A stretch of DNA of 64,000 nt from a candidate division NC10 bacterium CSP1-5 (GTDB lineage Bacteria > Methylomirabilota > Methylomirabilia > Methylomirabilales > CSP1-5), in the NCBI GenBank assembly GCA_001443495.1, contig LDXR01000005.1, positions 68,696 through 132,695 on the forward strand, read 5' to 3'. This document shows positions 8,212-54,281 of the stretch, piece after piece. The notes beneath the pieces are model-generated. The model saw only the letters and a list, made by a program, of their open reading frames with translations. It was not told where the DNA came from and made no database searches. The translations under genes were made by a program, and so were the position numbers. Positions within the stretch are counted from its first letter, which is position 1. Each line of letters opens with the position of its first letter.

Positions 8212-8900
8212 GGCGAACGGGGATCGCCCCGGGCCTCAAGCGGACCTTTCAGCACCGACTCCTCAGGTGGTATCGGTCCCACGGTCGGAACTTACCCTGG
8301 CGGAAGACCCGGGACCCGTACCGTATCCTGGTGTCCGAGGTCATGCTTCAGCAGACCCAGGTGGAGCGGGTCCTCGGATTCTACGACATATTTCTCACGC
8401 GGTACCCGACCGTAGAGGAGCTGGCCTCTGCAAGACCTGGCGAGGTGCGCGAGGCCTGGGAGGGGCTCGGCTACTACGCCCGGGCCAGAAACCTGCACAG
8501 GACGGCCCGACAGCTGATCCGCCGCCACAGGGGCCACTTTCCGAAAACCTTCGGGGAGGTGTGCGCCCTCCCCGGAGTGGGTCGCTCCACGGCGGGGGCC
8601 CTGTTGAGTTTTGCCTTCCACATCGACAGCCCCATCTTGGACACGAACGTCAAGCGCCTCCTTTCCCGGGTCTTTATCCAGCGCCCCTCTCCTACACCGG
8701 CGCACAGCGAGCGGCGCCTCTGGCGGCTCAGTGCCAGTGTGATCCCGACGGGGAAGGCCTGGACCTTCAACCAGGCGCTCATGGATTTTGGAGCGTTGGT
8801 GTGCACCGCGAAGAATCCTCGGTGTGACGCGTGTTGTTTCACCGACATGTGTCACGCGTATGCCAAATGGACGCTCCGGGGAGTCGACCGGCAAGGGTGA
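8208..8900 (+). CDS. mutY: A/G-specific adenine glycosylase, short form without C-terminal Nudix-like domain
   Basis: LPWRKTRDPYRILVSEVMLQQTQV, HhH LPGVGRSTAGAL, 4Fe-4S ligands C-x6-C-x2-C-x5-C (CTAKNPRCDACCFTDMC); 4-nt overlap with nudix gene. Confidence 0.92.
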   Translation: MRRTGIAPGLKRTFQHRLLRWYRSHGRNLPWRKTRDPYRILVSEVMLQQTQVERVLGFYDIFLTRYPTVEELASARPGEVREAWEGLGYYARARNLHRTARQLIRRHRGHFPKTFGEVCALPGVGRSTAGALLSFAFHIDSPILDTNVKRLLSRVFIQRPSPTPAHSERRLWRLSASVIPTGKAWTFNQALMDFGALVCTAKNPRCDACCFTDMCHAYAKWTLRGVDRQG

Positions 8901-8933
8901 GGACCGCAAGAGGCGAGGAGGCACGGGCTAGCC

Positions 8934-9620
8934 ATGCTCCGGGCGGTCATCTTCGACTTCGACGGCGTGATCGTCGATACCGAGCGATTGCATTTCCAGG
9001 CGCTCAAGCGCGTCCTCGCCGAGGAGGGAATCCCCCTCGCGTGGGAGGAGTACACCCAGGCCTATCTGGCGATGGATGACAAAAACTGCTTTCGCACCGT
9101 GCTCGCTCGTCACGGTCGGGCGATCGCGCCGGGCATTGTGGATGGGCTCAGCGAACGGAAGGCACACTATTTCTTTGACACGCTGTCCGATGCGGTTACC
9201 TTGTTCCCTGGGGTGGAAGGCCTCATCCGAGAGGCCGCGGGAAAGTACCCCCTGGCCATCGCCTCGGGGGCCCTGCGTGAGGAGATCGAGTTTCTCCTCG
9301 GGAAGGTCGGCCTCCGGGAGTTCTTCCCCGTGGTGGTCGCCGCGGAGGATGTCGTCCGGGGGAAGCCCGACCCCGAGGCCTATATCGCCGCCCTGGGCCG
9401 GCTGAATCGGCTGATATCTGGCAGGCCCGTGAGGCCCTCCGAGTGCCTGGTGGTCGAGGACTCTCGCCATGGGGTGGCCGCCGCCGCCGCCGCGGGGATG
9501 CGGTGTCTCGCCGTCACAAATTCTTACCCGCCAGAGGAGCTGACCGCCGCCCATTGCGTTTTGAAGAGCCTGGAGCAGGTCGACCTGCAACAGATTATTG
9601 AGGCCCTCTTTGTGCGATGA
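8934..9620 (+). CDS. HAD-superfamily phosphatase/phosphoglucomutase-like
   Basis: DFDGVIVDTERLH, GKPDPEAYIAA, VVEDSRHGV. Confidence 0.92.
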   Translation: MLRAVIFDFDGVIVDTERLHFQALKRVLAEEGIPLAWEEYTQAYLAMDDKNCFRTVLARHGRAIAPGIVDGLSERKAHYFFDTLSDAVTLFPGVEGLIREAAGKYPLAIASGALREEIEFLLGKVGLREFFPVVVAAEDVVRGKPDPEAYIAALGRLNRLISGRPVRPSECLVVEDSRHGVAAAAAAGMRCLAVTNSYPPEELTAAHCVLKSLEQVDLQQIIEALFVR

Positions 9621-10483
9621 CGGTTCGCATGCGGGAAGAGCGGGAAGTGGAGACCCAGCAGATCCGCAACCGGTTCGGCGCCATCGTTGCCCGGCCTGAC
9701 GAGCAGATCAACCTAGCGGAGGCAGCGCTGTTGATTGCCGCCGAGGAATACCCCCATCTCGACATCCGCGGCTATCTGGACCGCATTAGTCGCATTGCTG
9801 AACGGATCAAGGATCGGGTGGGTCCCGAGCTCGAGCCGGTTAGATTGATCCAAGAATTCAACCGCTCTCTCTTCGATGAGGAGGGGTTTCGGGGGAATGC
9901 CGAAGACTACTACGACCCCAAGAACAGCTTCCTCAACGAGGTGATCGATCGCCGGAAGGGGATCCCCATCACCCTCTCCATCTTGTACATGGAGATCGCC
10001 TGGCGCCTCGATCTGCCTCTGGTCGGAGTGGGGCTGCCGGGGCACTTTATCGTCAAGTACGAGGCCGCGGAGAGGGAGATTCTCGTCGACCCATTTCATC
10101 AGGGAGCGCTCCTCTCCGAAGAGGACTGCCAGCGCACCTTGGACCGGATCTACAGTGGCAAGGTGGCCTTCCATCGAGACCTACTCACGCGGACCCCCAA
10201 GAGACTGATCCTCGCCAGGATGTTGAACAACCTCAAGAGCATCTACCTGCAACTCGGGGATCTGCCCCGGGCACTTGGCGTCGCAGAGCGACTGGTGCTC
10301 ATCGACCCCGACTCCCCGAACCTCCTCAGGGATCGAGGCCTGATCTATGGCGAGATGAACAAGTTCGCTCAGGCCGTTGCCGACCTCCGACGCTACCTCG
10401 AGGCTGCCCCGCACGCAGAAGACCGAGAGGCCATCACCGAGCGTCTCCGGCACCTCCAGATCCGTCAGGCCTCGCACAACTGA
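9617..10483 (+). CDS. SirB1-family transglutaminase-like/TPR protein
   Basis: SFLNEVIDRRKGIPITLSILYMEIAWRL...VGLPGHFIVKY; C-terminal TPR. Confidence 0.9.
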   Translation: MTVRMREEREVETQQIRNRFGAIVARPDEQINLAEAALLIAAEEYPHLDIRGYLDRISRIAERIKDRVGPELEPVRLIQEFNRSLFDEEGFRGNAEDYYDPKNSFLNEVIDRRKGIPITLSILYMEIAWRLDLPLVGVGLPGHFIVKYEAAEREILVDPFHQGALLSEEDCQRTLDRIYSGKVAFHRDLLTRTPKRLILARMLNNLKSIYLQLGDLPRALGVAERLVLIDPDSPNLLRDRGLIYGEMNKFAQAVADLRRYLEAAPHAEDREAITERLRHLQIRQASHN

Positions 10484-10552
10484 CGATGACCGATCACCGT
10501 TAACCGATGACGTCCCACTCGGCCGCCGGTGGTCGGTCAACGGTTATCGACC
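10484..10552. repeat. Intergenic palindromic ACCGAT/GGTCGGT repeat
   Basis: gaccgatcaccgttaaccgatgac ... ggtggtcggtcaacggttatcgacc; related to 54301-54400. Confidence 0.55.
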
Positions 10553-10684
10553 AGCGGGAATTGTATTGACCCTTGGGCAGATCTTCACTAGCATATGGGC
10601 CCGTCCATCAACGAAGCCGGATTGCGCGTCATAGAGAGGCAGATCACTCTCCCTGAAGAATCCTGAGTCTTGGGAGGCCGTGGT

Positions 10685-13600
10685 ATGGATGCACGAGCCT
10701 TGAGCGAGGTGGTGGCGGCGTTTGGGGGCGATAAGGACCAGGCTGAGGCCGAGGTCGAAGAGCGGTGGCAGGCCCTGAAGCGGGTCGATCCGGGTGCGAC
10801 CCGCGATAGAGCGATGGGGCAGCTCGCCTGGGAATTCGCCTCCCGAACGATTGAGCACGTCTTTCCGGGGGATAACTGGTACTTCATGGTGAAGGCGGCC
10901 CAGTCGGCCGCCCACATCCTCCTCCTGGACCTCGAAGATGCGGTCGCCACGACCCGCAAACACGTCGCCCGCACCGTTCTCATCCTCTTGATCCGAGCCC
11001 TGCGGGGCCAGGCCATAACGGCAGAGGAGCTGGAATTCCTCAAGACCCATGCCCTGCCGGCCGGCAAGGCGGAGCAGCTCGAGCAGCAGTTTGTCCGGGT
11101 GGGAGCCGGTTTTCAGATCAAGCCGGAATGCCGATTCCCCGAACGACAGATGATCCTGGTCCGGCCCAACAATCTCCGGACCAAGTGGGCAGCGGGGGAC
11201 TACTTTCAGGTGATCCGAGAAATCGGGGACCTCATTGCGGGGATTTACCTGCCCAAGGTCAAGGGGCCGGAGGATGTCCGGGTGGCCGTCCAGATCCTCC
11301 GGGCGCTCCAGCAGGAGCGAGGGTGGGTCACGGCGACACACAAGGTCTTTGTGTTGACCGAGCTGCCTGGAGCGATTCTTCAGGCGCAGGAGATCCTGGC
11401 GGTGGCCCCCGAGGTCGAGGAGGCCAACCTGGGCGTCGTGGACTACACGGCGGCCACGGGGGGCCGCAGCGTCGTCCAGCAAGAGCAGTACACCTACATG
11501 CGCTACCCGCTGCTCAAAATAGTGGAAGCCGCCCGGGCGGCCGGCAAAGCGGCCGGGACCGGCATCACGGTGAAGTTGAACGCGGATGACACCGAGGTAG
11601 ACACCGTCCGGGCCATCGCCCTCGGGATCCATCGCAAGTGGAGTGTGCACCCCGCGCATATCGAAGGGATCGCGCGGCATGCGGCGGAGTTTCCCCCTGT
11701 TCTTCGAAAGCGCATCCCCTTCGCCGACATCCCGCCCTTCGATCTCTCCAGGCTCGAGGGCTTGGCGCAGGAGGAAAGGCCAATCCTCCCTCCGCTCGTC
11801 TTCGTCCCTCGGCCTGTGACCCTGTGCCGGTCGGTGGTCCCGGTCGCCGGGAAGGACGTTCATGGTCTCAAGACCGCGCTCACCTCGCCGGCCGACATGG
11901 TTATCATCGATGTGCAAGACATCCTCGGACCGGAGAGCCGCGAGGCGCAGCGTACGCTCACCCAGCTTTGCACCCAGGCAAGGCGCCCCTCCCAGGTGCT
12001 GGCGCTCCAGCTCGACCTGGAGCAGCCCGAGGCGGCCCAGAAGCTCCAGGCCTTCTTGCCGCTCCTGAAGGAGCAGGTCCAGGCCCTGATCCTTCCTGCC
12101 GTCGATCAGGCCCGCGTTATCCGCCATGCCGCCGGTCTGCTCACTACAATTGAACGGGAGGTCGGCCTTCCCGTCGGCTCCCTTGCCCTGGGGGCGCGCA
12201 TTACAAAGCCCGAGGCCGTCGAGCGCGAGTCCTACGCCATCGCCACCGCCAGCCGGCGGATGATGTGGTTGTTCCTCGACCTCGAGTCTCCGCAGCCGAA
12301 AGAGGACTTCAGCGATCCCAAGACGAAGGGGTATCACTACTACCGCTCGGCGCTGGTGGCCGCCACGGCCGCAGCCGACATCGACGCCGTGGACGCAGCC
12401 AGCGATCTCGCTCGGTTGGACGAAGAGTCTCTCTTCACCGCCAACCTCGGTTTCCACGGCAAGGTCGTGGGGCCAGAGCAGGCCGAGCGCGTCAACGCCA
12501 TTATGAATCCTCCGCGCGCCGGGCAGCGACCGGCTGAGCCCAAAGGGCCGGCGGCTGACGTGTTCAACGCCCGCTGGATCAACGCGGTGGAGCGAGCATT
12601 GGAGATCCTGGAGCTCTACGCCACCGCCGATCAGGAGCGGAATCTGGGGGCGGTCGCATACAACGACCCGATCACGGGCCAGGCCGAGCTGGTTGATGCC
12701 GCCACGGCGCGGATCTACTACCGCCAGCTGGAGCGGGCGCTCAAGGCCAACCATCTCAGCGACGCCGAGGCGAAGAGGTATGTGACGGCCCGGGAACGCC
12801 TCGTCCTGGCGCTCCGACCGGGCGGGATGGACCAGGTAGGTGAAGCAGTCTTTGTCGGGGAGACGCTCCAGGGAGATGCTTCATCCGTAGCCCCCTGGAT
12901 GGTCCAGGCCTTCGCCAAGACCTCGGGGGATCGGAACCGCTATCACCTCGACCGGGCGTATGCAGAGCACTCCCGGTTCCAGGGATTGGTCGCCCACGGA
13001 CTGTTCACGGTCTGTCATCTCGTGGCGAGCCTGGGCCGCCTCCGGCCGGCCTATGCTGTCGAGGCTCTTGAAGCTCACTTCCGGGCGCCGGTCTACTTCG
13101 GAGACAGCCTCACGCCGCTCGCCGAGGTCCAGGAGCTCTTGCAGGGGGGGATGGCACGTCTCCATCTTACCGCGGTGAACCAGACCGGCAAGGTCGTCTG
13201 TGAGGGGACCGCCACATTGCGGCCGGAGAAGGCGGGCGAGATCCTCCCCACACCTCCCGCAGAGATCGCCTGGCTCCGCCAGTGGGCCCAGGATGTCACT
13301 CCCTCGGTGCCTCCGGGTGTACACGACTTCACCGACCCGGCAAGTCCCCGCCACCAGACCTTCACCAAGACAATCACCCCCGAGCTCGTGCGCGCCACCC
13401 GGGCCCTGTTCGGCCCCCTCTATCCACACCAGGTGAGTCCCCTGCTCGGCCTCGGGACGCTAGCAATGACCTCGGCCGAAAGCTCGCCAGGCCACCTTCT
13501 CCTTACGGCCCGGGTGTCGCAATTCGGAGCGCCCATCGAGCCAGGAGATCAGCTCAGCATGTCAGTCTCAGCCCCGCCACCCGACCAGATCCGCCGCTCG

Positions 13601-13711
13601 CAGAAGGGGAAAGGGCCTCCGATCGTCCCGCTCGATATTGTCATCAACAATCAGCGGGGCGCTACGGTCCTCGCAGGCCAGGTGGTCAAGCTCATGGAGG
13701 AGCGGAGCTGA
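10685..13711 (+). CDS. Multidomain fusion: HpcH/HpaI (CitE-like) lyase + second degenerate CitE-like domain + MaoC-type hydratase + C-terminal hot-dog-like region
   Basis: ORF ~1008 aa; LLLDLEDAV and GITVKLNADDTEVD (CitE 1), VIIDVQDILGPESR (CitE 2), SGDRNRYHLDRAYAEHSRFQGLVAHG (MaoC). Confidence 0.85.
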   Translation: MDARALSEVVAAFGGDKDQAEAEVEERWQALKRVDPGATRDRAMGQLAWEFASRTIEHVFPGDNWYFMVKAAQSAAHILLLDLEDAVATTRKHVARTVLILLIRALRGQAITAEELEFLKTHALPAGKAEQLEQQFVRVGAGFQIKPECRFPERQMILVRPNNLRTKWAAGDYFQVIREIGDLIAGIYLPKVKGPEDVRVAVQILRALQQERGWVTATHKVFVLTELPGAILQAQEILAVAPEVEEANLGVVDYTAATGGRSVVQQEQYTYMRYPLLKIVEAARAAGKAAGTGITVKLNADDTEVDTVRAIALGIHRKWSVHPAHIEGIARHAAEFPPVLRKRIPFADIPPFDLSRLEGLAQEERPILPPLVFVPRPVTLCRSVVPVAGKDVHGLKTALTSPADMVIIDVQDILGPESREAQRTLTQLCTQARRPSQVLALQLDLEQPEAAQKLQAFLPLLKEQVQALILPAVDQARVIRHAAGLLTTIEREVGLPVGSLALGARITKPEAVERESYAIATASRRMMWLFLDLESPQPKEDFSDPKTKGYHYYRSALVAATAAADIDAVDAASDLARLDEESLFTANLGFHGKVVGPEQAERVNAIMNPPRAGQRPAEPKGPAADVFNARWINAVERALEILELYATADQERNLGAVAYNDPITGQAELVDAATARIYYRQLERALKANHLSDAEAKRYVTARERLVLALRPGGMDQVGEAVFVGETLQGDASSVAPWMVQAFAKTSGDRNRYHLDRAYAEHSRFQGLVAHGLFTVCHLVASLGRLRPAYAVEALEAHFRAPVYFGDSLTPLAEVQELLQGGMARLHLTAVNQTGKVVCEGTATLRPEKAGEILPTPPAEIAWLRQWAQDVTPSVPPGVHDFTDPASPRHQTFTKTITPELVRATRALFGPLYPHQVSPLLGLGTLAMTSAESSPGHLLLTARVSQFGAPIEPGDQLSMSVSAPPPDQIRRSQKGKGPPIVPLDIVINNQRGATVLAGQVVKLMEERS

Positions 13712-20881: not shown

Positions 20882-21145
20882 GTATCCGCCTCCCCCGAAA
20901 GAAACCTCCTGACAGGGGGGCGAAAAAGCAACAATCGTGCCAGGGCTAGCCCGAGAATCCCCCTCCACCACCACAATAATTGAACATCTTTTGTCACCAA
21001 GAGATCCCCGTGACCGCCCCGTCTCGGTAACCACGTGCCGGGAATGAGCCGCCCTTCCCTGCGTTGACAACGCACGACCCCTTTGTTAACGTCAGATATT
21101 GTTTCGGAGAGAGCAAGACTCTATACTGCGCCCGTGTTCGCCGGG

Positions 21146-22762
21146 ATGCATATGCTGCGCCTCGACGCGATAGATGTCGCCCTTCTCCCACGGGTCAATC
21201 CCATCTTTCGGGATTACCTTCAGGGAAGGTCTCCGCTCCGCGATTTCTATCGCTGGGACCCGCGGGAGCCGCAGGAGCAACTCGTAGAGTCTCTCACGCG
21301 CCGAAGCTACCGGCGGGACGAGCTGGCCGCCATTCTCACCGACCAGAACCGGGCCTGGGGGGCAGACAACGCGCTCGTCGAAGGGATCGCACGCCTGCGC
21401 GATCCTCAGGCGATCATGGTAGTGACCGGTCAGCAGGTGGGACTCTTCGGTGGCCCCCTCTACACCTTGTACAAGGCTCTCACGGTGGTGGCGGTAGCCC
21501 GCCAGCTCGAGTCGCAATGGCAGATTCCCTGCCTCCCCCTCTTTTGGATGGCCTCGGAGGACACGGACTTTGCCGAGATTGACCACGTCGCCATGCCGGA
21601 CGAGCAGGACCGGGTCACACTTCTCCGCTACGTCCCGCATGAAGGATTTGGGACCGATCTCCCAGCGAATCATACGTTCACTCCGGAGATCGGCGGGGTC
21701 TTCGACGCGTTCAGGCAGGCGGCGGGGGCGAGTCGACTTCAGGAGAAAGTTTTTGCGCTGCTCCAGGACTGTTATCGTCCAGGGGCAAATCCGGTTGTGG
21801 CCTTCGGCCGGTTGTTGAGCTCCCTCCTTGGAAAGCAGGGCCTGATTCTGGTGGACCCTTCCGACGGACGCCTCAAGGCGTTAGCGCGCTCCCTGTTCCT
21901 CCACGAGATCGTCACCGCGCCCACCTCGGCACGGCTGGTCCAGACAGCCTGGGAGAAGCTTCGCGCTCTCGGCTACCCTCCGCAGGTCCGTCTCAGGGGA
22001 GAAGGCCCCAACCTCTTTTATCTGCACGAGGGGCGCCAGTCCCTCAAACAGATCGGGGACCGGCAAGCGCTCGTTGAGATTGTGGAGAAGACCCCGGAGC
22101 GCTTCAGCCCCAACGTGATTCTCCGGCCCATCATGGAGAGTTTCCTCTTCCCGACGCTCGCCCACGTGGGGGGGCCGCACGAGATTGCCTACTACGCCCA
22201 GCTGCGCGGGGTCTTTGACCACTTCGACATCCCGATGCCGTTTCTCCTCCCTCGGGCATCGCTCACCCTCGTGGAAGGCCGAATCGAGCGACTCGTCAAG
22301 AAACATGACCTGACGTTCCCCCGCCTCCACGAAGACCCCGAGCGGGTTCTCCGCCAGGTTCTTCGCCGCTCACTCCCCAGGAGTTTTGTGGCGAAGCAGC
22401 AGAGGGTCGTGCGGACGGTACTCAAGAGCTTCGAAGAGCTCAAGGTGCTGGTCTCGACCCTCGATCCCACCCTCACCCCCCGGGTGGGTCGGGGGGAGGG
22501 GTTGGTGAAGAAGCAGATGGAAGATATGGAGCGGCTCCTCCTCCGCTCCCTCAAGCGCCGTAACCAGGAGATCCGGACCCAGGTCCTTCGGGTCCTGACT
22601 CACTTACTCCCCCACAGAGAGTTGCAGGAGCGGGTGTACGGCTTCATGCCGTATCTCGGCCGTCACGGGCTCCCCCTCCTCGATGTGATCGCGGGTGCCA
22701 TCGACGGGCCGGGATGGGACCACCGGCTCCTCTATCTGGGCGCCTCACGCCCCGCTCGATGA
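21146..22762 (+). CDS. bshC: Bacillithiol biosynthesis cysteine-adding enzyme BshC
   Basis: VVTGQQVGLFGGPLYTLYKALTVV, PLFWMASEDTDFAEIDHV; start uncertain. Confidence 0.95.
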   Translation: MHMLRLDAIDVALLPRVNPIFRDYLQGRSPLRDFYRWDPREPQEQLVESLTRRSYRRDELAAILTDQNRAWGADNALVEGIARLRDPQAIMVVTGQQVGLFGGPLYTLYKALTVVAVARQLESQWQIPCLPLFWMASEDTDFAEIDHVAMPDEQDRVTLLRYVPHEGFGTDLPANHTFTPEIGGVFDAFRQAAGASRLQEKVFALLQDCYRPGANPVVAFGRLLSSLLGKQGLILVDPSDGRLKALARSLFLHEIVTAPTSARLVQTAWEKLRALGYPPQVRLRGEGPNLFYLHEGRQSLKQIGDRQALVEIVEKTPERFSPNVILRPIMESFLFPTLAHVGGPHEIAYYAQLRGVFDHFDIPMPFLLPRASLTLVEGRIERLVKKHDLTFPRLHEDPERVLRQVLRRSLPRSFVAKQQRVVRTVLKSFEELKVLVSTLDPTLTPRVGRGEGLVKKQMEDMERLLLRSLKRRNQEIRTQVLRVLTHLLPHRELQERVYGFMPYLGRHGLPLLDVIAGAIDGPGWDHRLLYLGASRPAR

Positions 22763-35456: not shown

Positions 35457-36653
35457 CTACGCGATAGCGCCAGCGGCGCGCAGCTTGCCGATTTGGGCCT
35501 GATCGATGCCGAGCCAGTGCAGGATCTCCTCGGTGTGTTGCCCCAGCAGAGGAGCCGGGCGGCGGATCCGACCCGGCGAGCGAGAGAGCTTCACGGGGAT
35601 GCCGATATTCTTGATTGTGCCGGCTACGGGATGGTCCAGCTCCACGAGCATCTCACGAGCCCGCACGTGGGGGTCCTCGTACACCTGGGCCATATTATAG
35701 ATCGGGCCGGCAGGCACGCCGGCCTCCTTCAAGAGGGCGAGCCATGCTGCCGTCGTCCGCTGTCGAAAGACCGGCTGCAGGGTCGCGGCGAGTTGCCGAC
35801 AGTGGCGGACACGGTCGGCACTGCTCACAAAGCGAGGGTCCTCGGCGAGATCCTGCCGCCCGAGGACTTTGCACAGCCTTTCCCAGGTGGACTGATTCGC
35901 CGCGCCGACACTGAGCGCCCCGTCCTGGGTGTCGAAAACCTGATAGGGTGCGTTCAGTCTGTGGGCGGATCCCATAGGAAGCGGAATCTCGCCGGTGGCG
36001 AAGTAGATGGACGACTCCCAAAAGGTGTAGGCCACGGCCCCCTCTAGGAGGGAGGTATCGACGTACTGTCCCTCCCCCGTCTTCAAGCGGTGGATATAGG
36101 CCGACAGGATCCCATAGGCGGCATACATCCCCGCATTGAGATCGGAGATGGGTACCCCCACCTTCGTGGGCAGATCTCCGGGGTGTCCGGTCACGCTGAT
36201 CAGCCCGCTCATCCCCTGGGCGACGAGATCGAAGCCCCCCAGGCTCCGGTACGGGCCGGTCTGGCCGAAGCCGGAGATGGAACAATAGATGATGGTGGGA
36301 TTGATCCCCTGGATCGCCTCGTAGTGGAGCCCGAGGCTTTCCATCGTGCCCGGGCGGAAGTTTTCCACCAGGATCTCACTCCGCCTGGCGAGGCGGCGAA
36401 AGACGTCGCGCCCCTCTTCCGATTTGAGATTGAGGGTGACGCTCCGCTTGTTCCGATTGATGGCCAGGAAGGCGGCGGACTCTTCGGCAATGAAGGGGGG
36501 GCCGAAGGACCGGGAATCGTCCCCTCCCTGGAGTTTCTCGACCTTGATGACATCCGCCCCCATGTCGGCGAGGAGGAGCGTGCAGAAGGGCCCCGCCATC
36601 ACCTGGGTCGCATCGAGAACCACGACGCCTTCCAGCGGCATGCGTGCCGTCAT
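35457..36653 (-). CDS. CaiB/BaiF-type CoA-transferase
   Basis: LEGVVVLDATQVMAGPFCTLLLADMGADVIKVEK; internal ATG 36653 preferred over the long ORF start. Confidence 0.94.
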   Translation of the reverse strand: MTARMPLEGVVVLDATQVMAGPFCTLLLADMGADVIKVEKLQGGDDSRSFGPPFIAEESAAFLAINRNKRSVTLNLKSEEGRDVFRRLARRSEILVENFRPGTMESLGLHYEAIQGINPTIIYCSISGFGQTGPYRSLGGFDLVAQGMSGLISVTGHPGDLPTKVGVPISDLNAGMYAAYGILSAYIHRLKTGEGQYVDTSLLEGAVAYTFWESSIYFATGEIPLPMGSAHRLNAPYQVFDTQDGALSVGAANQSTWERLCKVLGRQDLAEDPRFVSSADRVRHCRQLAATLQPVFRQRTTAAWLALLKEAGVPAGPIYNMAQVYEDPHVRAREMLVELDHPVAGTIKNIGIPVKLSRSPGRIRRPAPLLGQHTEEILHWLGIDQAQIGKLRAAGAIA

Positions 36654-36679
36654 CGGCCTTCCCTCCCGCTCCGGGCAGC

Positions 36680-37468
36680 TCAGCGTCCGCGGAAGACCGG
36701 CTTCCTTTTCTCCAGAAACGCGCGCCGCCCTTCCTGGAAGTCCTCGGTATCGAAGCAGGCAAAGATGAGCTTTTTCTCCTCGGGCGTGAGCCCCTCGAGG
36801 CCGGGATCGCGGAGCACCGTCTCGAGCATCTGCTTGTGCCAGCGATGGCTCAATGGCGCGGTGCCGGCGATCTCCGCGGCCACCTTTTCGGTGTAGGACT
36901 CGAGTTCGTCGAGGGGGACCAGGCGCGAGATGAGGCCGATCCGGAGTGCCTCCTCGGCTTCGACCAGCCGGGCCGTGAGCAGGATGTCCATGGTCATTCC
37001 GGAACCTATCAGCTGGACCAGTCGAGACATCTCCCGGTACCCCACTACGATCCCGAGCTTGGCGGTGGGAATCCCGAACCGGGCATTGTCGGCGGCGATC
37101 CGGAGATCGGCGGCCGTGGCCAGCTCGAGCCCACCCCCCACACAATAGCCGGCCACCATGGCGATCGTCGGCCTGGGGAGATGAGCGATCGCCTCCAGGC
37201 CCTCTTCGACCGCCGCGTGATACTTGCTGGCCAACGCGGAGTTCTTGCGTTGCTCCTCGAACTCCGCGATGTCGGCCCCGGCCGAGAAAGCCTGCGTCCC
37301 GGTCCCACGGAAAACCACCACCCTCACGTCGGCGTCGGCCTCGAGTTCGGCCATCAGGGCGGCGAGCCGGTGCCACATCGCGTAGGTGACGGCATTGCGT
37401 TGCGCCGGTCGGTTGATGGTGATGATGGCAATCCCGTTGGCTCTAGCGAGCAGAATCTCTTGGCCCAT
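36680..37468 (-). CDS. Enoyl-CoA hydratase/isomerase family protein
   Basis: INRPAQRNAVTYAMW, FSAGADIAEF, GYCVGGGLELATAADLRIA. Confidence 0.94.
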   Translation of the reverse strand: MGQEILLARANGIAIITINRPAQRNAVTYAMWHRLAALMAELEADADVRVVVFRGTGTQAFSAGADIAEFEEQRKNSALASKYHAAVEEGLEAIAHLPRPTIAMVAGYCVGGGLELATAADLRIAADNARFGIPTAKLGIVVGYREMSRLVQLIGSGMTMDILLTARLVEAEEALRIGLISRLVPLDELESYTEKVAAEIAGTAPLSHRWHKQMLETVLRDPGLEGLTPEEKKLIFACFDTEDFQEGRRAFLEKRKPVFRGR

Positions 37469-37910
37469 CGCGCATCCTTTCCTCATCTCGAAAATGCTGT
37501 TCCACCGCCGTCGCCTGCCGCTCGAGTGTATCGCGCGAGTCGTTCTCTGTCATCCCCCAATAGACGAACTGAAAGTAGTGCGCCAATTCGTGGGCCAGCA
37601 GGTCCGGGCGGCTCGGCTCGACGACGATCAAGTTGGCCGAGGGGATGTAGGCAGAAAAGACCCGGCCCCCCGTGTCGAGACCGATGAGCGCCGCAAAGCG
37701 CTCCGGATCCATCTCATACCGCAGGACGATCTGCGGGCAGGGTCGGTCCTCCTCTACCCGGATATACATCAGTTCGGCCACCCGATCGAAGACCCGGCGC
37801 ACCTCGCCGTCACCGCAGGCCCCCGCCGGCCTCGGGGTTGTTGCCAGGACGACCACGAGACCCGCGATCACTAGAGCTTGACGATGTCGAGAATAAACAG
37901 GCTGAGCCAT
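37443..37910 (-). CDS. Exported hypothetical protein with HELAH motif
   Basis: Signal peptide; DLLAHELAHYFQFVYWG; overlaps neighbours. Confidence 0.7.
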   Translation of the reverse strand: MAQPVYSRHRQALVIAGLVVVLATTPRPAGACGDGEVRRVFDRVAELMYIRVEEDRPCPQIVLRYEMDPERFAALIGLDTGGRVFSAYIPSANLIVVEPSRPDLLAHELAHYFQFVYWGMTENDSRDTLERQATAVEQHFRDEERMRDGPRDSAR

Positions 37911-39148
37911 GGCACGTAGGTCACCAAGAGCGTCACGAAGACCAGCACCAGCGTGTAGACGTACCCTGCCTTGAAGACCTCCCAGAAGGGGATGTCGGCA
38001 ATGGCCGCCGTCGTGAGGAGGACGGAGGCGACAGGCGGGGTCTGCTGCCCCACGCCCAGGTTGATGGTCACGATGATGCCGAAGTGAATCGGATCGATCC
38101 CGAGCTTTCGGATCAGGGGCATCACGATCGGCACGATGAGGATGATCGCCGCAGCGCTGTGCAGGAACATCCCGGCGAGGAAGAAGAAGAGGTTCAGGAA
38201 GAGGAGGATCAGGTACTTGTTATTGGTCGTCTCGAGTATGGCCCGGGCGAACTTCTGGGGGACCTGCTCGGTGGTCAGATACCACCCGAGGACTGCCGAG
38301 GCGGCCACGATCACCATGACCGCAGCGGTCTGGAGCGACGAGTCCCTGAGGACGCGGACGAGAAAGTGCCACGAGACCTCGCGGTATATAAACGCGCCGA
38401 TGACAAGGGCCGCCACCGCCGCGAGCGCGGCGACCTCGGTGGCCGTCGCAATCCCCAAAAGGAAGCCGCCCCAGATCACGACCGGGATCAAGAGGGCCCA
38501 GGTAGATTCCAGGGTGGCCGCGCCGACTCTGCGAAGGGAGAAGGCGTCTTCCACGGGGAAGTTGTACTTGCGCGCATAGTAGTAGGACAGGAGCATCATG
38601 CACCCCCCGGCCAGGAAGCCGGGGACGAAGCCGGCGATAAAAAGCCTGGCCACCGATTCCTCCGCCATCCAGGCGTAGATGATCATGGGGATGCTGGGTG
38701 GGATCAGGATGGCGGCGCTGGCCGCGTTCGAGACCACGGCGGCGCTGAAGGCGCGGGGGTATCCCCGCTTCTCCATGGCGGGGATGACCACCTTGCCGAT
38801 GGCGGCCGCGTCGGCGACGGAGGAGCCCGAGATCTCGCTTTGGATCATCGTCGCCAGGATCGTGACCATCGAGAGTCCTCCGCGGATGTGTCCCACTACG
38901 GAGCTGGCGAGATTGACCAGGCGGAGTGAGATCCCGCCTGTCTCCATTAGGCCCCCGGCCAGGATGAAGAGCGGGATGGCGAGAAGCGGAAAGCTTGAGG
39001 AACCCGCAAAGAGGTTCAGGGGGATGACCGTCAGCGGCGCCACCCCCTTTCCGACGAGGAAGATAGCGGTGCTGAGGACCAGAGCGTAACCGATCGGGAC
39101 ACCGATCGCCGTCAGGCCGAGGACGAAGGCAAGGATCAGCCATTCCAT
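37871..39148 (-). CDS. dctM: TRAP transporter large permease (DctM)
   Basis: GVPIGYALVLSTAIFL..., GGISLRLVNLASSVVGHIRGGLSMVTI, QTPPVASVLLTT. Confidence 0.95.
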   Translation of the reverse strand: MEWLILAFVLGLTAIGVPIGYALVLSTAIFLVGKGVAPLTVIPLNLFAGSSSFPLLAIPLFILAGGLMETGGISLRLVNLASSVVGHIRGGLSMVTILATMIQSEISGSSVADAAAIGKVVIPAMEKRGYPRAFSAAVVSNAASAAILIPPSIPMIIYAWMAEESVARLFIAGFVPGFLAGGCMMLLSYYYARKYNFPVEDAFSLRRVGAATLESTWALLIPVVIWGGFLLGIATATEVAALAAVAALVIGAFIYREVSWHFLVRVLRDSSLQTAAVMVIVAASAVLGWYLTTEQVPQKFARAILETTNNKYLILLFLNLFFFLAGMFLHSAAAIILIVPIVMPLIRKLGIDPIHFGIIVTINLGVGQQTPPVASVLLTTAAIADIPFWEVFKAGYVYTLVLVFVTLLVTYVPWLSLFILDIVKL

Positions 39149-39193
39149 CGGAAATCATCCTCTGACGATCGAGGGTCGCCGAAGGCAGCGCCG

Positions 39194-39730
39194 TCACTCG
39201 GTTGCGTCACGTTGGGATCCCTCCTTCCCGAGCACCGCCCCCTGGAGGAGCCTGGCCAGGTCCGCCAGACTGACCAATACCATCAGCCCCCCGCTGATCG
39301 GGAGGACGCTGTACACCCAGCTCATCCGCACCCACTCCAGGGAAACCGCCGTCTCCACCCTGACCGCGACCATCAGAACCCAACCGTAATAGCAAAGGAT
39401 GCCCTGGAAGATCAGGACGCACACCTCCGCACCCATGGCCACCCACCGGCGGGCCTCGGGCCGGAACCCCTCGACGATGGTCTCGAAGGCGATGTGCTTG
39501 CGGTGGTACGCCGCCACGACCGCCCCGTAGAACGTCAGCCAGACGAGCAGGTACGAGGCGAATTCGTCGTACCAGATGAGCGACGCATTCAGGACATAGC
39601 GGTAGAAGACCCCGAGCGTCACGACGACGACCATGGCGATGAGCAACAACATCGCCCACACGTCCGCCAGCGCCATGAGCCACCGGTAGAGGCGCGACAA
39701 CATGGACGGACCTCCCGACGCCTGTATCAT
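39194..39730 (-). CDS. dctQ: TRAP transporter small permease (DctQ)
   Basis: VTLGVFYRYVLNASLIWYDEFASYLLVWLTFYGAVVAAYHRKHIAFE. Confidence 0.94.
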   Translation of the reverse strand: MIQASGGPSMLSRLYRWLMALADVWAMLLLIAMVVVVTLGVFYRYVLNASLIWYDEFASYLLVWLTFYGAVVAAYHRKHIAFETIVEGFRPEARRWVAMGAEVCVLIFQGILCYYGWVLMVAVRVETAVSLEWVRMSWVYSVLPISGGLMVLVSLADLARLLQGAVLGKEGSQRDATE

Positions 39731-39791
39731 GCGCCCATTGCAAAGAAGGGCGCCGCCCCGGCCTCACGGCAGAGGCGGCGCCGCGCGCGAC

Positions 39792-40799
39792 TTACCTCAA
39801 GGACTGGATGAGCTTGACCAGGTCGCCGCCTCCCTTCACCTCTACGTCGAACTCGTGGTAGATGGGCGCGGAGGCCCTGATGAAACCGCTCCTGTCCACC
39901 TCGTTCATCTTCATCTGGCCGGTCGTCAGTTTGGCAGCCAATTCCTTGTCCAGCCGCTCGCCTTCGCTTCTGGCAAAGTCCCCGACTTCGACGGCGATCT
40001 TCTCGAGGGTCTGCTGGATGTCCTTGGGGAGCTTCTGCCAGAAGGCCTCACTAATGGCAGGGTAGGCCGGGGTGTAGACGTGGCCGGTCAGGGAGAGGTA
40101 TTTCTGCACTTCGTTGAACTTCGCCGAGGCGATCTGGGGGAACGGGTTCTCTTGCCCGTCCATGACCCCGGACTGAAGCGCCGAGTAGACCTCGGCGAAC
40201 GGCATGGGGGACGGATTCGCCCCGTAGGCCTTGAACATCTTGGCCCGCCAGACGCCGCCCGGAATGCGGAGCTTGATTCCCTTCAGGTCGTCCGGCGCGT
40301 TGATGGGCCGGACGTTGTTGGTCACGTGCCGGAACCCGTTCTCCCAGTATCCGAGGAGGCGCATACCCTTGCCGGGAATCGGGGTGAACAGGGCGTCGCG
40401 GACACGCGGGTCCCCGGCGACCTTCTTCATGTGGGCCCGGTCCACAATGATATACGGCATCTCGAAGACGCCGAACTTCGTCTCAACAGTGCTCATGATC
40501 GTGGAGGGGAGGAACATCTCGAGCGCCCCGATCTTGATCCCCTTGACCATGGCTTCGTCGGTTCCGAGCTGGCTGGAGTGGAAGGTTTTCACCTCCACTT
40601 TGCCCTTCAGCGCCGCATTCACGCGCTTTGCGTACTCGTTGGCCGTTATGTCAAACAGGGAGTTCGGAAATCCCACGTGCCCGAACCGAATCTCGATGAG
40701 CGCGGCTCCCGTCGTCGGCGTCACGAACAGATGACTACCGCTGGCGATGGCGAAGATAATCAGGAGAACGGCTATGAGGACCTTGCCCCATGTCTTCAT
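39792..40799 (-). CDS. dctP: TRAP transporter substrate-binding protein (DctP)
   Basis: IRFGHVGFPNSLFDITANEYAKRVN..., LRIPGGVWRAKMFKAYGANPSPMPFAEVYSALQSGVMDGQENP. Confidence 0.95.
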   Translation of the reverse strand: MKTWGKVLIAVLLIIFAIASGSHLFVTPTTGAALIEIRFGHVGFPNSLFDITANEYAKRVNAALKGKVEVKTFHSSQLGTDEAMVKGIKIGALEMFLPSTIMSTVETKFGVFEMPYIIVDRAHMKKVAGDPRVRDALFTPIPGKGMRLLGYWENGFRHVTNNVRPINAPDDLKGIKLRIPGGVWRAKMFKAYGANPSPMPFAEVYSALQSGVMDGQENPFPQIASAKFNEVQKYLSLTGHVYTPAYPAISEAFWQKLPKDIQQTLEKIAVEVGDFARSEGERLDKELAAKLTTGQMKMNEVDRSGFIRASAPIYHEFDVEVKGGGDLVKLIQSLR

Positions 40800-43714
40800 G
40801 GCATCTCCCTCCCTTTCCCTTGCTGTAGATGCGTGATGACTGCCTCCGAGAGAATCTCGGCAGGATGCCGGGCCCGGCGGCCGGTCCCGTGCAGGATTTG
40901 CTGTCGGCAGGAGACCCCCGAGGCAACGACCTCTGCGCCCTCGCCAGCGTTCTCGATCGCCGGAAACAGTCGCTGCCGCCCGATGGCAACCGAGAGGTCG
41001 TAGTGCTCTCGCTCAAAGCCGAAGGAGCCCGCCATCCCGCAGCAGCCGGCATCGATCTCCTTCACGCTGAGGCCCGGAATCAGGCGCAGGGCCTCGAGGG
41101 TCGGACGAGTTCCCACCAATGCCTTCTGGTGGCAGTGGCCGTGGACGAGGACGCGCCGCTCGGTCGGCCGAAAGGCGCCTGCACAATCCCCCCGCCGGCC
41201 GACGAGAAATTCCTCCAGCAGCAAGCTCTGCCGCGCCACCGCCTCGGCCTCCGGCCCCTCGGCGAGCTCCGGGACCTCATCCCGCAGGGTCAACAGGCAG
41301 CTCGGCTCGCACCCCACGATGGGGATCCCTGACCTCACATACCGAGACAACCGCTCGACCGTCGCGCGAGCGCACTGCGCCGCCTCGCGCAGGAGGCCCT
41401 TGGAGATCAAGGTCCGGCCACAGCAGCCGGCCTCCGCCAGGATCACCTGATACCCCAACCCCTCCAGGAGCCGCGTGGCCGCCATCCCCACCTCGGGATA
41501 GTGATAATTCATAAAGGTATCGGGGAAAAGGGCAACCGACCCCTTGGTCGACAGCGGCGAGGCACCCCGCCTGAGGAACCATTGCGTGAAGGTCACAGGG
41601 GTAAAAGGGGGCAACGGACGCCGCCGCTCGATGCCCACCAGATGATGGAGGACCCACCGGGTTGCGGGGATCGCCGTCGCCCAATTCGACAGCGGGGCCA
41701 ACCGGCTCCCCCACTGCCCCAGCTTCGCGGCATGGGCAAAGAGCCGCGCGCGGAGGGGGATGCCGTTCTTCTCGTAGTAGCGCGCGAGGAACTCTGCCTT
41801 GAGCTTGGCCATATCGACGCTTGTAGGGCACTCGGCTTTGCAGGCCTTGCACTCGAGGCAGAGATCGAGCGCCCCGTAGAGTTCCGGCCCGCTCAGGGTC
41901 TCGGGCGGGAGCTCCCCCGAGAGGGCGGCCCGGAGGAGGTTGGCGCGACCGCGGGTCGTGTGTTCCTCCTCGCGCGTGACCATGTAGGAGGGACACATGC
42001 TCCCGTGCATCTTACGACAGTTCCCTACCCCCGAGCACCGTTCGACCGCGGCCGCGAAGCCCCCCTCATCGCGGAAGCGGTGGTGGGTCGTGACAGCGGC
42101 CGCCCGATACCCCGGGCCGTAGCGCAGGCGCCCGTTGACCGGTGGCGGATCGTCGCTGACGATCTTGCCCGGATTGAGGATACCGCGCGGGTCGAGGAGC
42201 GTCTTCACCTCCCGGAAGGCCTGTTCCAAGCCCCCGTACTGTCCCGTGATGTAAGGAGTCCGCGCCAGCCCGTCCCCGTGCTCGGCGCTGATGGTCCCCT
42301 TGAGATCCCATACGACCGCGTACGCTTCCTCGGCGATGGTCCGGATCAGGCCCACGTCCCGCGGTTCCTTCGGGTCGAGGAAGGGCAGGATGTGGAGGTT
42401 GCCGTCCCCGGCATGGCCGTAGATGCCGGCCATCACGCCGTGCTTCTCCAGGAGCGTGCGCATCCGACTGATGAAGTCGGGCAACCGGGTCGGATGCACG
42501 GCGGCGTCTTCAATGAAGGCCAGCGGCTTGCGGGGGCCTTTCACCTTGTTGGCGACCGCGCCGGCGACCTTCCGGATGGCGACGATCCTCGCCTGGTCGG
42601 CTCGATCCGTCGCGAGGAGCATGCCGGTGGCCAGCCGGCTCTCCTCGAGCAGCCGTCGATGCGTCGCCGCCATGCGCTCCTCTACCTCCTCCGGACGCTC
42701 CCCCTCGTGCTCGAGGATCAGGATCGCCTCGATCCCCTCCGGGAGGAAGGGGCGGAGTTCGGGGTTCGCCTCGCGGCTGAAATCGAGGAGCTGCCGCTCG
42801 ATGGCTTCGATCATGCTCGGCTGGAGCTCCCGGAGGAGGACCACGGCCTCTCCCATCTTCTCGAGGGCGTCGAAGGTGAGGAGCGCGATCGTCCGGTGCC
42901 TGGGATGATCCAGGATCCGGAAGCTCGCCTCGGTGAAGATCCCCAACGTCCCCTCCGATCCGGTCAAGAGCTGGCCGAGGTCGATCATCCCGTCTTGAAC
43001 GACCCGCCAGAGGTTGTACCCGCAGTTGTTGTTGGTCACCTCCGGGGCCTTCGCTTTCAATTGATCGCCATAGCGGTTCAGGATGTCGAGGAGGCCTCTG
43101 TAGATCGGGCCCTGAACCGGGTCCGTGAGCAGCGCCGCGAGGCGGGGGCCGTTCCGGTCCACGGGCTCGGTCCGGATCACCTCCCCGCTCGCCAGGACGA
43201 CGTCGAGGGACTCCAGGTAATCACGCGTCGTGCCGTACTTGACCGAGTGAGCTCCTTTGCTGTTGGTGGCCAGCATCCCGCCCAGGGCGCAGACGTCGCC
43301 GCTTGACGGGTCGGGAGGGAAATACTTGTTGTGCGCCTTGAGCGCCGTCGTAAGCGCCGTGAGCGTGCAGCCGGGCTCGACCCGCACCCGACCGTCGGCC
43401 GGCTCGAGCGCCGAAATCCGGTGCATGTACCGCGTGAAATCCAGGACGATCCCGGCGCCGAGCTCCTGCCCGCACCGGCTGGATCCGCCTCCGCGGGGAA
43501 TCACGGGGATGCCGCGGTCGGCGGCGTAGCGCACGGTCGCGATCACATCCTCGCAGCTCTTGGGGAAGACGACGCCGAGCGGCGTGATCCGATACATGCA
43601 GGCCCCGGTGCTGTAGAGCACCCGCGTCACCTCATCGAAGCGCACGTCTCCCCGGATGAGGGATTGCAGATCGGCGGCCACGGCCTGGAGTTTCGCGGCA
43701 AAGGCGTCGCTCAT
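40796..43714 (-). CDS. Fused FAD-linked oxidase (GlcD-like) + Fe-S/CCG-domain subunit (GlcF/LldE-like)
   Basis: PRGGGSSRCGQELGAGIVLDFTRY (FAD PCMH), CLECKACKAECPTSVDMAKLK (4Fe-4S), two CCG motifs (CCGRTL, CCGMAGSFG). Confidence 0.93.
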   Translation of the reverse strand: MSDAFAAKLQAVAADLQSLIRGDVRFDEVTRVLYSTGACMYRITPLGVVFPKSCEDVIATVRYAADRGIPVIPRGGGSSRCGQELGAGIVLDFTRYMHRISALEPADGRVRVEPGCTLTALTTALKAHNKYFPPDPSSGDVCALGGMLATNSKGAHSVKYGTTRDYLESLDVVLASGEVIRTEPVDRNGPRLAALLTDPVQGPIYRGLLDILNRYGDQLKAKAPEVTNNNCGYNLWRVVQDGMIDLGQLLTGSEGTLGIFTEASFRILDHPRHRTIALLTFDALEKMGEAVVLLRELQPSMIEAIERQLLDFSREANPELRPFLPEGIEAILILEHEGERPEEVEERMAATHRRLLEESRLATGMLLATDRADQARIVAIRKVAGAVANKVKGPRKPLAFIEDAAVHPTRLPDFISRMRTLLEKHGVMAGIYGHAGDGNLHILPFLDPKEPRDVGLIRTIAEEAYAVVWDLKGTISAEHGDGLARTPYITGQYGGLEQAFREVKTLLDPRGILNPGKIVSDDPPPVNGRLRYGPGYRAAAVTTHHRFRDEGGFAAAVERCSGVGNCRKMHGSMCPSYMVTREEEHTTRGRANLLRAALSGELPPETLSGPELYGALDLCLECKACKAECPTSVDMAKLKAEFLARYYEKNGIPLRARLFAHAAKLGQWGSRLAPLSNWATAIPATRWVLHHLVGIERRRPLPPFTPVTFTQWFLRRGASPLSTKGSVALFPDTFMNYHYPEVGMAATRLLEGLGYQVILAEAGCCGRTLISKGLLREAAQCARATVERLSRYVRSGIPIVGCEPSCLLTLRDEVPELAEGPEAEAVARQSLLLEEFLVGRRGDCAGAFRPTERRVLVHGHCHQKALVGTRPTLEALRLIPGLSVKEIDAGCCGMAGSFGFEREHYDLSVAIGRQRLFPAIENAGEGAEVVASGVSCRQQILHGTGRRARHPAEILSEAVITHLQQGKGREMP

Positions 43715-53340: not shown

Positions 53341-54281
53341 TACTTCGTCTTCAGCAGCTTTTTGGCCTCGGCGACGATATTGTCGATTGACAGGCCGAAC
53401 TTCTTGTACAGAGCCACCGGGTCTCCCGATTCCCCGAAATCGCGCACCGCGATCCGCCGGACCACTCCCTCGCCCCGTTCGGCCACCACCTCGCAGACGG
53501 CGCCTCCGAGCCCACCGTGAAGGCCGTGATCCTCGACCGTCAGGATCCGTCCCGAGCGCTGGACGCTGTCGAGAACCAGCTCTTCGTCGATGGGTTTGAG
53601 GGTGTGGATGTTGACCGCCCGCACATCGAGACCCTGGCTTCTCAACTCGCGCGCGGCCTCTCGCGCGTTATGAACGGTGCCGCCGGTGGCCATGATCGTC
53701 AGGTCCCGCCCCTCGCCCCGAGCGGCATCTACGATCACCCCTTTTCCGAACTCAAAGCGGTAGTCAGGTGGATTGACGTCCTCCACCTTCTGGCGGGTCA
53801 AGCGCAGGAACACCGGGCCCTCGTGCTCCACGATGTATTCCACGGCCCTTTCGGTCTCGATCGCATCACCGGGCTGGATCACGCTCATATTGGGAAGTGA
53901 CCGCATGAGGGCGATGTCCTCGAGGCCCATCTGGCTGTACCCGTCCTCGCCGATGCCTATCCCGGCATGGGTCCCCACGATCTTCACGTTGGCGTGGTTG
54001 TATGCCACCGAAACGCGAATCGTCTCGAAACGCCCCGCCACAAAGATCGCGAAGGTGCAGATAAACGGGATCCAGCCCTCGAGCGCCAGGCCGGCCCCGA
54101 TCCCGATCATATTGGCCTCGGCGACCCCCACGTTGAATGATCGGTCAGGGTACTTCTCGACGAACTTCACCGTGTTGGTGGACTTGCCCAGGTCGGCATT
54201 GATGACGACGACCCGATCGTTCTTGGCGGCGACCTTGAGCAGGGCCTCGCCGAAGGCTACGCGGGTTGCCTTCCCACCCAT
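53340..54281 (-). CDS. Transketolase, C-terminal subunit
   Basis: RVVVINADLGKSTNTVKF, THAGIGIGEDGYSQMGLEDIALMRSLPNMSVIQPGD. Confidence 0.95.
   Translation of the reverse strand: MGGKATRVAFGEALLKVAAKNDRVVVINADLGKSTNTVKFVEKYPDRSFNVGVAEANMIGIGAGLALEGWIPFICTFAIFVAGRFETIRVSVAYNHANVKIVGTHAGIGIGEDGYSQMGLEDIALMRSLPNMSVIQPGDAIETERAVEYIVEHEGPVFLRLTRQKVEDVNPPDYRFEFGKGVIVDAARGEGRDLTIMATGGTVHNAREAARELRSQGLDVRAVNIHTLKPIDEELVLDSVQRSGRILTVEDHGLHGGLGGAVCEVVAERGEGVVRRIAVRDFGESGDPVALYKKFGLSIDNIVAEAKKLLKTK

Follow-up and report, generated by a model that had tools for sequence, protein, structure and literature searches.

A fused CitE-CitE-MaoC protein of Methylomirabilota with complementarily degenerate lyase barrels, a candidate mesaconyl-CoA hydratase/beta-methylmalyl-CoA lyase

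A single gene in the 64,000-nucleotide stretch of DNA analysed here (referred to as the window) encodes a protein in which two tandem CitE-type barrels are joined to a MaoC-type hydratase half. The first barrel has the active-site residues of malyl-CoA lyases and no lid, whereas the second has lost these residues and carries the lid. Both this fusion architecture and the complementary degeneration of the barrels are well supported. We propose, with a probability of roughly 0.6, that the protein unites a mesaconyl-CoA hydratase with a beta-methylmalyl-CoA lyase and would catalyze the final two reactions of the ethylmalonyl-CoA pathway, usually the task of separate enzymes, with barrel 2 acting as a lid-donor pseudoenzyme. 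From the features described below we infer the substrates, the placement of the lid on barrel 1, and any channelling between the sites.

The window is a part of contig C5 of a 2.77 Mb genome, estimated to be 99.7% complete. Its close relatives, as far as the species-level genome collection shows them, are without exception metagenome assemblies of Methylomirabilota/NC10, a little-known group of bacteria. The gene is a single intact open reading frame of 1008 aa, beginning with ATG and ending with a stop codon (Table 1), in agreement with the uninterrupted frame of about 1009 aa given by the initial annotation. Although the frame is open further upstream, to a TTG at 10670, the ATG at 10685 was taken as the start because it is common to the orthologs and is preceded by GGGAGG at 10672-10677. 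Orthologs with identities of 94, 79, 78 and 66% retain the frame at full length, as do two divergent homologs (36-38%), and dN/dS values in the folded domains are mostly 0.09-0.25; thus, the frame does not arise by chance. A 736-aa antisense frame crossing the gene (10544-12754) was disregarded, being a shadow frame of the kind seen in high-GC DNA.

Table 1. Features of the fusion gene (coordinates of the window) and of its split paralog (coordinates of its own locus)
Feature	Location	Strand	Basis
Fusion gene: CitE barrel 1 - CitE barrel 2 - lid - MaoC hot-dog - degenerate hot-dog	10685..13711	+	
GGGAGG, Shine-Dalgarno-like sequence, 7 nt 5' of the ATG at 10685	10672..10677	+	sequence
Residues 1-54, N-terminal extension, helical; one of the least conserved regions (identity 62-76%, dN/dS highest)	10685..10846	+	
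Residues 55-335, catalytic CitE/malyl-CoA-lyase-type TIM barrel (D1), no lid, the more conserved barrel	10847..11689	+	Pfam, hhalign, AF2 model
Arg160, oxoacid-binding residue corresponding to Arg76 in R. sphaeroides MCL	11162..11164	+	alignments
Glu226, predicted Mg2+ ligand, equivalent of MCL Glu141	11360..11362	+	alignment
Asp253, predicted Mg2+ ligand, equivalent of MCL Asp168	11441..11443	+	alignment
Residues 376-608, degenerate CitE barrel (D2): Arg->Gln442, Glu->Arg505, Asp->Glu534/variable	11810..12508	+	Pfam E 3e-9, alignment
Residues 622-709, lid as found at the C-terminus of CitE/MCL proteins (helix - beta-hairpin - helix), on D2	12548..12811	+	hhalign, AF2 model
Asp671, predicted catalytic lid Asp, equivalent of Asp299 RsMCL / Asp318 CaMCL	12695..12697	+	alignment
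Residues 723-850, catalytic MaoC / R-hydratase hot-dog	12851..13234	+	Pfam; PDB 5cpg E 4e-14
Asp749-Arg-Asn-Arg-Tyr-His754, predicted catalytic Asp/His pair of R-hydratases	12929..12946	+	sequence comparison
Residues 880-1005, second hot-dog, no catalytic motif	13322..13699	+	AF2 models, Foldseek double-hot-dog matches
Split paralog, MaoC ORF + CitE-CitE-lid ORF, order reversed relative to the fusion	L007 (own genome C7) 8282-13378	-	

The domain search revealed Pfam HpcH_HpaI in three stretches of the protein (E 1.6e-27 in total), each CitE barrel alone passing the cut-off of this model, and MaoC (PF01575) with an E-value of 1e-11; FAS1_DH was also matched, and beyond residue 880 no Pfam match was obtained. 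The AF2 model of the whole fusion (pLDDT 82, pTM 0.79) is divided into barrel 1 (56-330), barrel 2 (383-606), a helix-hairpin-helix segment (622-709) and two hot-dogs (727-847 and 890-1003), and a model of the hot-dog pair alone (713-1008) reached a pLDDT of 92. The outline drawn by the initial annotation stood in these analyses: its intact CitE-like domain with LLLDLEDAV is barrel 1, its degenerate CitE-like half with VIIDVQDILGPESR is barrel 2, its hydratase motif SGDRNRYHLD...AHG is present in the MaoC domain, and the further C-terminal region that it called hot-dog-like folds as a second hot-dog in the AF2 model despite having no Pfam match. A single CitE domain without MaoC, which the same annotation had considered, is not what the search returned.

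Judged by its sequence matches and its Mg-site motif, barrel 1 resembles malyl-CoA lyases (MCLs). Two of these, 5ugr and 4l9y, are its best sequence matches in the PDB. The LGVVDYTA motif of barrel 1 fits the G-x-A-D of MCLs and not the GAED of the CitE structure 1sgj. Arg160, Glu226 and Asp253 are invariant in every family member aligned. When compared with stand-alone NC10 CitE proteins, barrel 1 gave an hhalign E-value of 4e-38 (this and the following hhalign E-values for the barrels and lid refer to single comparisons), the match covering the barrel only, with no lid after it.

The properties of barrel 2 are the reverse. All three active-site residues of the barrel-1 type are lost from it in all members: Gln (Glu in one member) stands in place of the Arg, Arg (Trp in one member) in place of the Glu, and the Asp position varies. 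A phmmer search of the PDB with this barrel alone gave no match. It has evolved faster than barrel 1 (55% versus 79% identity to L012), and is under purifying selection (dN/dS of about 0.2). Together with the segment that follows it, barrel 2 matches a whole CitE protein from end to end in hhalign comparisons with five stand-alone NC10 CitE proteins (E 5e-27), and that segment alone matches the CitE C-terminal lid with an E-value of 1.5e-4. This lid stretch, located between barrel 2 and MaoC, holds nearly all of the family-wide invariant columns, including Asp671, which is invariant in 13 of 13 sequences. A different assignment of the stretch, as a malate synthase C-terminal domain, was suggested by the DAATAR/DAATAE likeness of its ELVDAATAR motif, and was rejected: the hhalign P was 0.22, PF20659 gave no match in the fusion, no malate synthase was found among the PDB matches, and the CitE lid accounts for the stretch.

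In solved malyl-CoA lyases, which are trimers, each lid covers the active site of an adjacent subunit and contributes the catalytic Asp to it, so that monomers cannot be active (PMC3832036). The fusion shares with the lyases of R. sphaeroides (4l9y), M. extorquens (5ugr) and C. aurantiacus (4l7z) the PF03328 barrel, the Arg/Glu/Asp Mg site, the lid with its catalytic Asp and the likely reaction; it differs from them in about 20% structural-alignment identity, in the C-terminal hydratase, and in combining a live barrel devoid of a lid with a dead barrel bearing one. As each barrel has kept what the other has lost, the degeneration is complementary, and barrel 1 together with the lid on barrel 2 would form one complete lyase site. 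The simplest reading is that this lid serves a barrel-1 site, in the same or in another chain. The degenerate CitE half is more than the structural element that the initial annotation suggested it may be: it carries the lid, with a predicted catalytic Asp, which barrel 1 lacks.

The hydratase half has a double hot-dog fold, as indicated by both AF2 and Foldseek. Near the top of the Foldseek matches were the C. aurantiacus MaoC protein 4e3e, Rv0216 and MeaC (8hgn), with the itaconyl-CoA hydratase PaIch lower down; malyl-CoA lyases were also among the matches of the fusion. The Asp-x4-His motif of Asp749 and His754 is invariant in all members having the MaoC domain. MeaC, the PF19315-type mesaconyl-CoA hydratase, resembles this half in its double hot-dog, its likely reaction and its place in the pathway. 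However, its catalytic Asn/His pair lies in the second, C-terminal hot-dog (PMC10164722), whereas that of the fusion lies in the first, and the fusion gives no match to PF19315 and is joined to a lyase. Therefore, the hydratase of the fusion does not belong to the MeaC family, even if the two are alike in action.

A survey of 95 Methylomirabilota genomes detected the full-length fusion in all but one of the seven that make up its own genus. Beyond the genus, full-length matches came from G028, which belongs to another family (66% identity), and from G002 and G004, which belong to a third (36-38%). The seventh genome of the genus (G011) contains only fragments, which resemble a split paralog that is also present in the source genome. 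There, contig C7 has a MaoC frame of 402 aa, then a CitE-CitE-lid frame of 716 aa, and then an MFS transporter; both frames carry their own copy of the lid segment, and Trp319 of barrel 1 is replaced by Thr or Ser. The same gene order occurs in G010 (L048), and pieces consistent with it in G011 (L049/L050). Such an arrangement would be expected if the gene had been duplicated in tandem and the two copies had then lost opposite halves. In the tree of D1 and D2, which has long branches, all first barrels form one clade and all second barrels another, so the tandem barrels go back to a single old event before these families parted. A protein search of the plasmid collection yielded partial CitE or MaoC matches only and no full-length fusion. 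The possibility, raised by the initial annotation, that the architecture is common does not apply, as we found it only in some NC10 bacteria, by a search of low sensitivity outside the phylum and a genome scan that reached close relatives only.

What the fusion might do is indicated chiefly by the genes that accompany it. None of the seven genomes of the genus has a PF03328 gene other than the fusion and the split paralog, and none has the PF19315 mesaconyl-CoA hydratase. The source genome has a malate synthase, and nothing above the cut-off for isocitrate lyase was found in it. Among the order's 35 genomes, 10 have a crotonyl-CoA carboxylase/reductase that scored above the curated cut-off, and an eleventh (G010) has one split over two contigs. 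With G011 scored as having the fusion, the latter occurs in 8 of these 11 genomes versus 2 of the 24 others (Fisher p 2.6e-4, 35 genomes), and the co-occurrence is seen also outside its own family (p 0.006), both p-values overstating independence because the genomes are related. The carboxylase is present without the fusion in G001, G003 and G022; the two genomes with the fusion and no carboxylase match over the cut-off, G008 and G011, are both incomplete.

An acyl-CoA dehydrogenase and an acyl-CoA mutase adjoin the carboxylase in G028 and G022, and are referred to as Mcd and Ecm by virtue of this linkage, not of an equivalog model. Relatives 73-80% identical to them occur in the carboxylase set as well as in G008 and G011, and in the remaining genomes the best relatives reach at most 63% and 47%. 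In the source genome, such a dehydrogenase and mutase pair is followed by thiolase and PHA synthase (contig C10), and at least one part of the carboxylase/dehydrogenase/mutase module was found in all 10 fusion genomes. In the divergent genome G002 (L046), the fusion directly follows a mutase, and is itself followed by a transposase and methylmalonyl-CoA epimerase; the mutase fragment is 61% identical to the carboxylase-linked mutase, compared with 51-53% to others. G004 shows the same succession of fusion, transposase and epimerase. In its own genus, the fusion is not adjacent to pathway genes and has no metabolic neighbours. The genes together make up the set of the ethylmalonyl-CoA pathway, and we infer with good reason, at somewhat better than even odds, that the fusion stands in for mesaconyl-CoA hydratase and malyl-CoA lyase. 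The step of the beta-methylmalyl-CoA/mesaconyl-CoA type, originally a guess, is now the best supported reading, owing to the genome context.

Two further observations concern genes of these genomes. A frame of 370-399 aa without Pfam or NCBIfam match adjoins the epimerase downstream of the fusion in each of the two divergent genomes (L046 1708-2907, minus strand; L047 6457-7569, plus strand). Contig C14 of the source genome (L056, match 53499-54128) encodes, in a 781-aa frame, a malate synthase-like protein with only a marginal PF20659 match in its C-terminal domain; proteins of this type occur in four of the seven genus genomes.

According to the proposed mechanism, the MaoC hot-dog would add water to mesaconyl-CoA, giving beta-methylmalyl-CoA, which would be cleaved at the Mg2+ site of barrel 1 (Arg160, Glu226, Asp253) to glyoxylate and propionyl-CoA. 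Barrel 2 would have been kept as a pseudoenzyme because its lid closes a barrel-1 active site and supplies Asp671, such supply within one chain replacing the exchange of lids between trimer subunits of known malyl-CoA lyases. That two tandem paralogous barrels, degenerated complementarily, make up the lyase site of an obligately asymmetric chain which hands beta-methylmalyl-CoA between sites in one assembly is a more tentative idea, to which we give slightly less than an even chance. Several facts count against the proposed function: substrates are not readable from the fold, the hydratase is not of the PF19315 type, PaIch is among its structural matches, pathway neighbours are missing in the genus, and the fusion reaches no curated equivalog cut-off (38.8 of 500 bits for the haloarchaeal MCL model NF041626, and 95.6 of 443 bits for TIGR01588).

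The main rival, which we regard as unlikely, is a fused enzyme of C5-dicarboxylate degradation, in which an itaconyl-CoA (or mesaconyl-C4-CoA) hydratase would act with a citramalyl-CoA lyase to form acetyl-CoA and pyruvate. The same pair of enzyme families would be employed, and PaIch appears among the structural matches, but the score of 79 bits with the RipC model (NF038242) is far under its cut-off of 375, and the Mg-site motif of barrel 1 is MCL-like and not of the CitE type. The window itself contains, at 35457-40799 (minus strand), genes for a TRAP transporter (DctP, probably DctQ, and DctM) adjoining a family III CoA-transferase that resembles, below cut-off, succinate-glutarate and succinyl-CoA:mesaconate CoA-transferases; this cluster is possibly a C5-dicarboxylate uptake route. 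It lies, however, more than 20 kb from the fusion, and degradation of itaconate would leave the co-occurrence with the carboxylase, dehydrogenase and mutase unexplained.

Other genes of the window deserve a brief mention. Next to the TRAP genes, at 40796-43714 (minus strand), there is a 972-aa FAD-linked oxidase, possibly a fusion of the glycolate- or lactate-dehydrogenase-like kind, whose C-terminal half is unmatched at E 1e-20. BshC, a protein of bacillithiol biosynthesis, is encoded in this NC10 genome at 21083-22762 (plus strand).

Less probable still than C5-dicarboxylate degradation is catabolism of longer or branched hydroxyacyl-CoAs, for instance a leucine-type cleavage of (R)-3-hydroxy-3-methylglutaryl-CoA as by Rv2498c, the co-occurrence with the carboxylase then being due to descent only. 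There is precedent for a CitE-like lyase that acts on more than one substrate (PMC6689899), and the isolation of the fusion from metabolic genes in its own genus would suit this explanation, but the persistence of the co-occurrence outside the family and the mutase and epimerase neighbouring the fusion in divergent genomes argue against it. Similarly improbable is operation in the synthase direction, with condensation of glyoxylate and an acyl-CoA (malate-synthase-like or 3-hydroxypropionate-bicycle-like) and dehydration of the product by the MaoC half, for although reactions of the lyase family are reversible and a weak likeness to the malate synthase barrel exists (E 0.007), PF01274 scored 15.8 of the 26.4 bits needed, PF20659 was not matched, and the source genome has a separate malate synthase.

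As regards known systems, RipB/RipC and Ich/Ccl of itaconate degradation also consist of a MaoC hydratase and a CitE-like lyase acting in succession, but these are separate proteins, and the fusion is far from the RipC model. The aldolase of the Shy-Sal system is of a different kind from the CitE-type lyase of the fusion. In the Shy-Sal complexes of steroid side-chain degradation, a MaoC hydratase and a retro-aldol enzyme are likewise physically coupled, though non-covalently (PMC11321319). In the open-access literature searched, we found no report of a CitE-MaoC fusion or of the ethylmalonyl-CoA pathway in NC10.

The residue-level predictions, with R160, E226 and D253 on one barrel and D671 on the other, make the idea of a donated lid directly testable. 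If the proposed function is correct, the protein would be a natural fusion of two glyoxylate-releasing steps, which might be useful for synthetic acetyl-CoA assimilation, and would represent a case in which a pseudoenzyme domain became fixed through complementary degeneration of a trimeric lyase. It would also supply two missing steps of acetyl-CoA assimilation in uncultured NC10 bacteria, for which most of what is said about carbon metabolism is inference.
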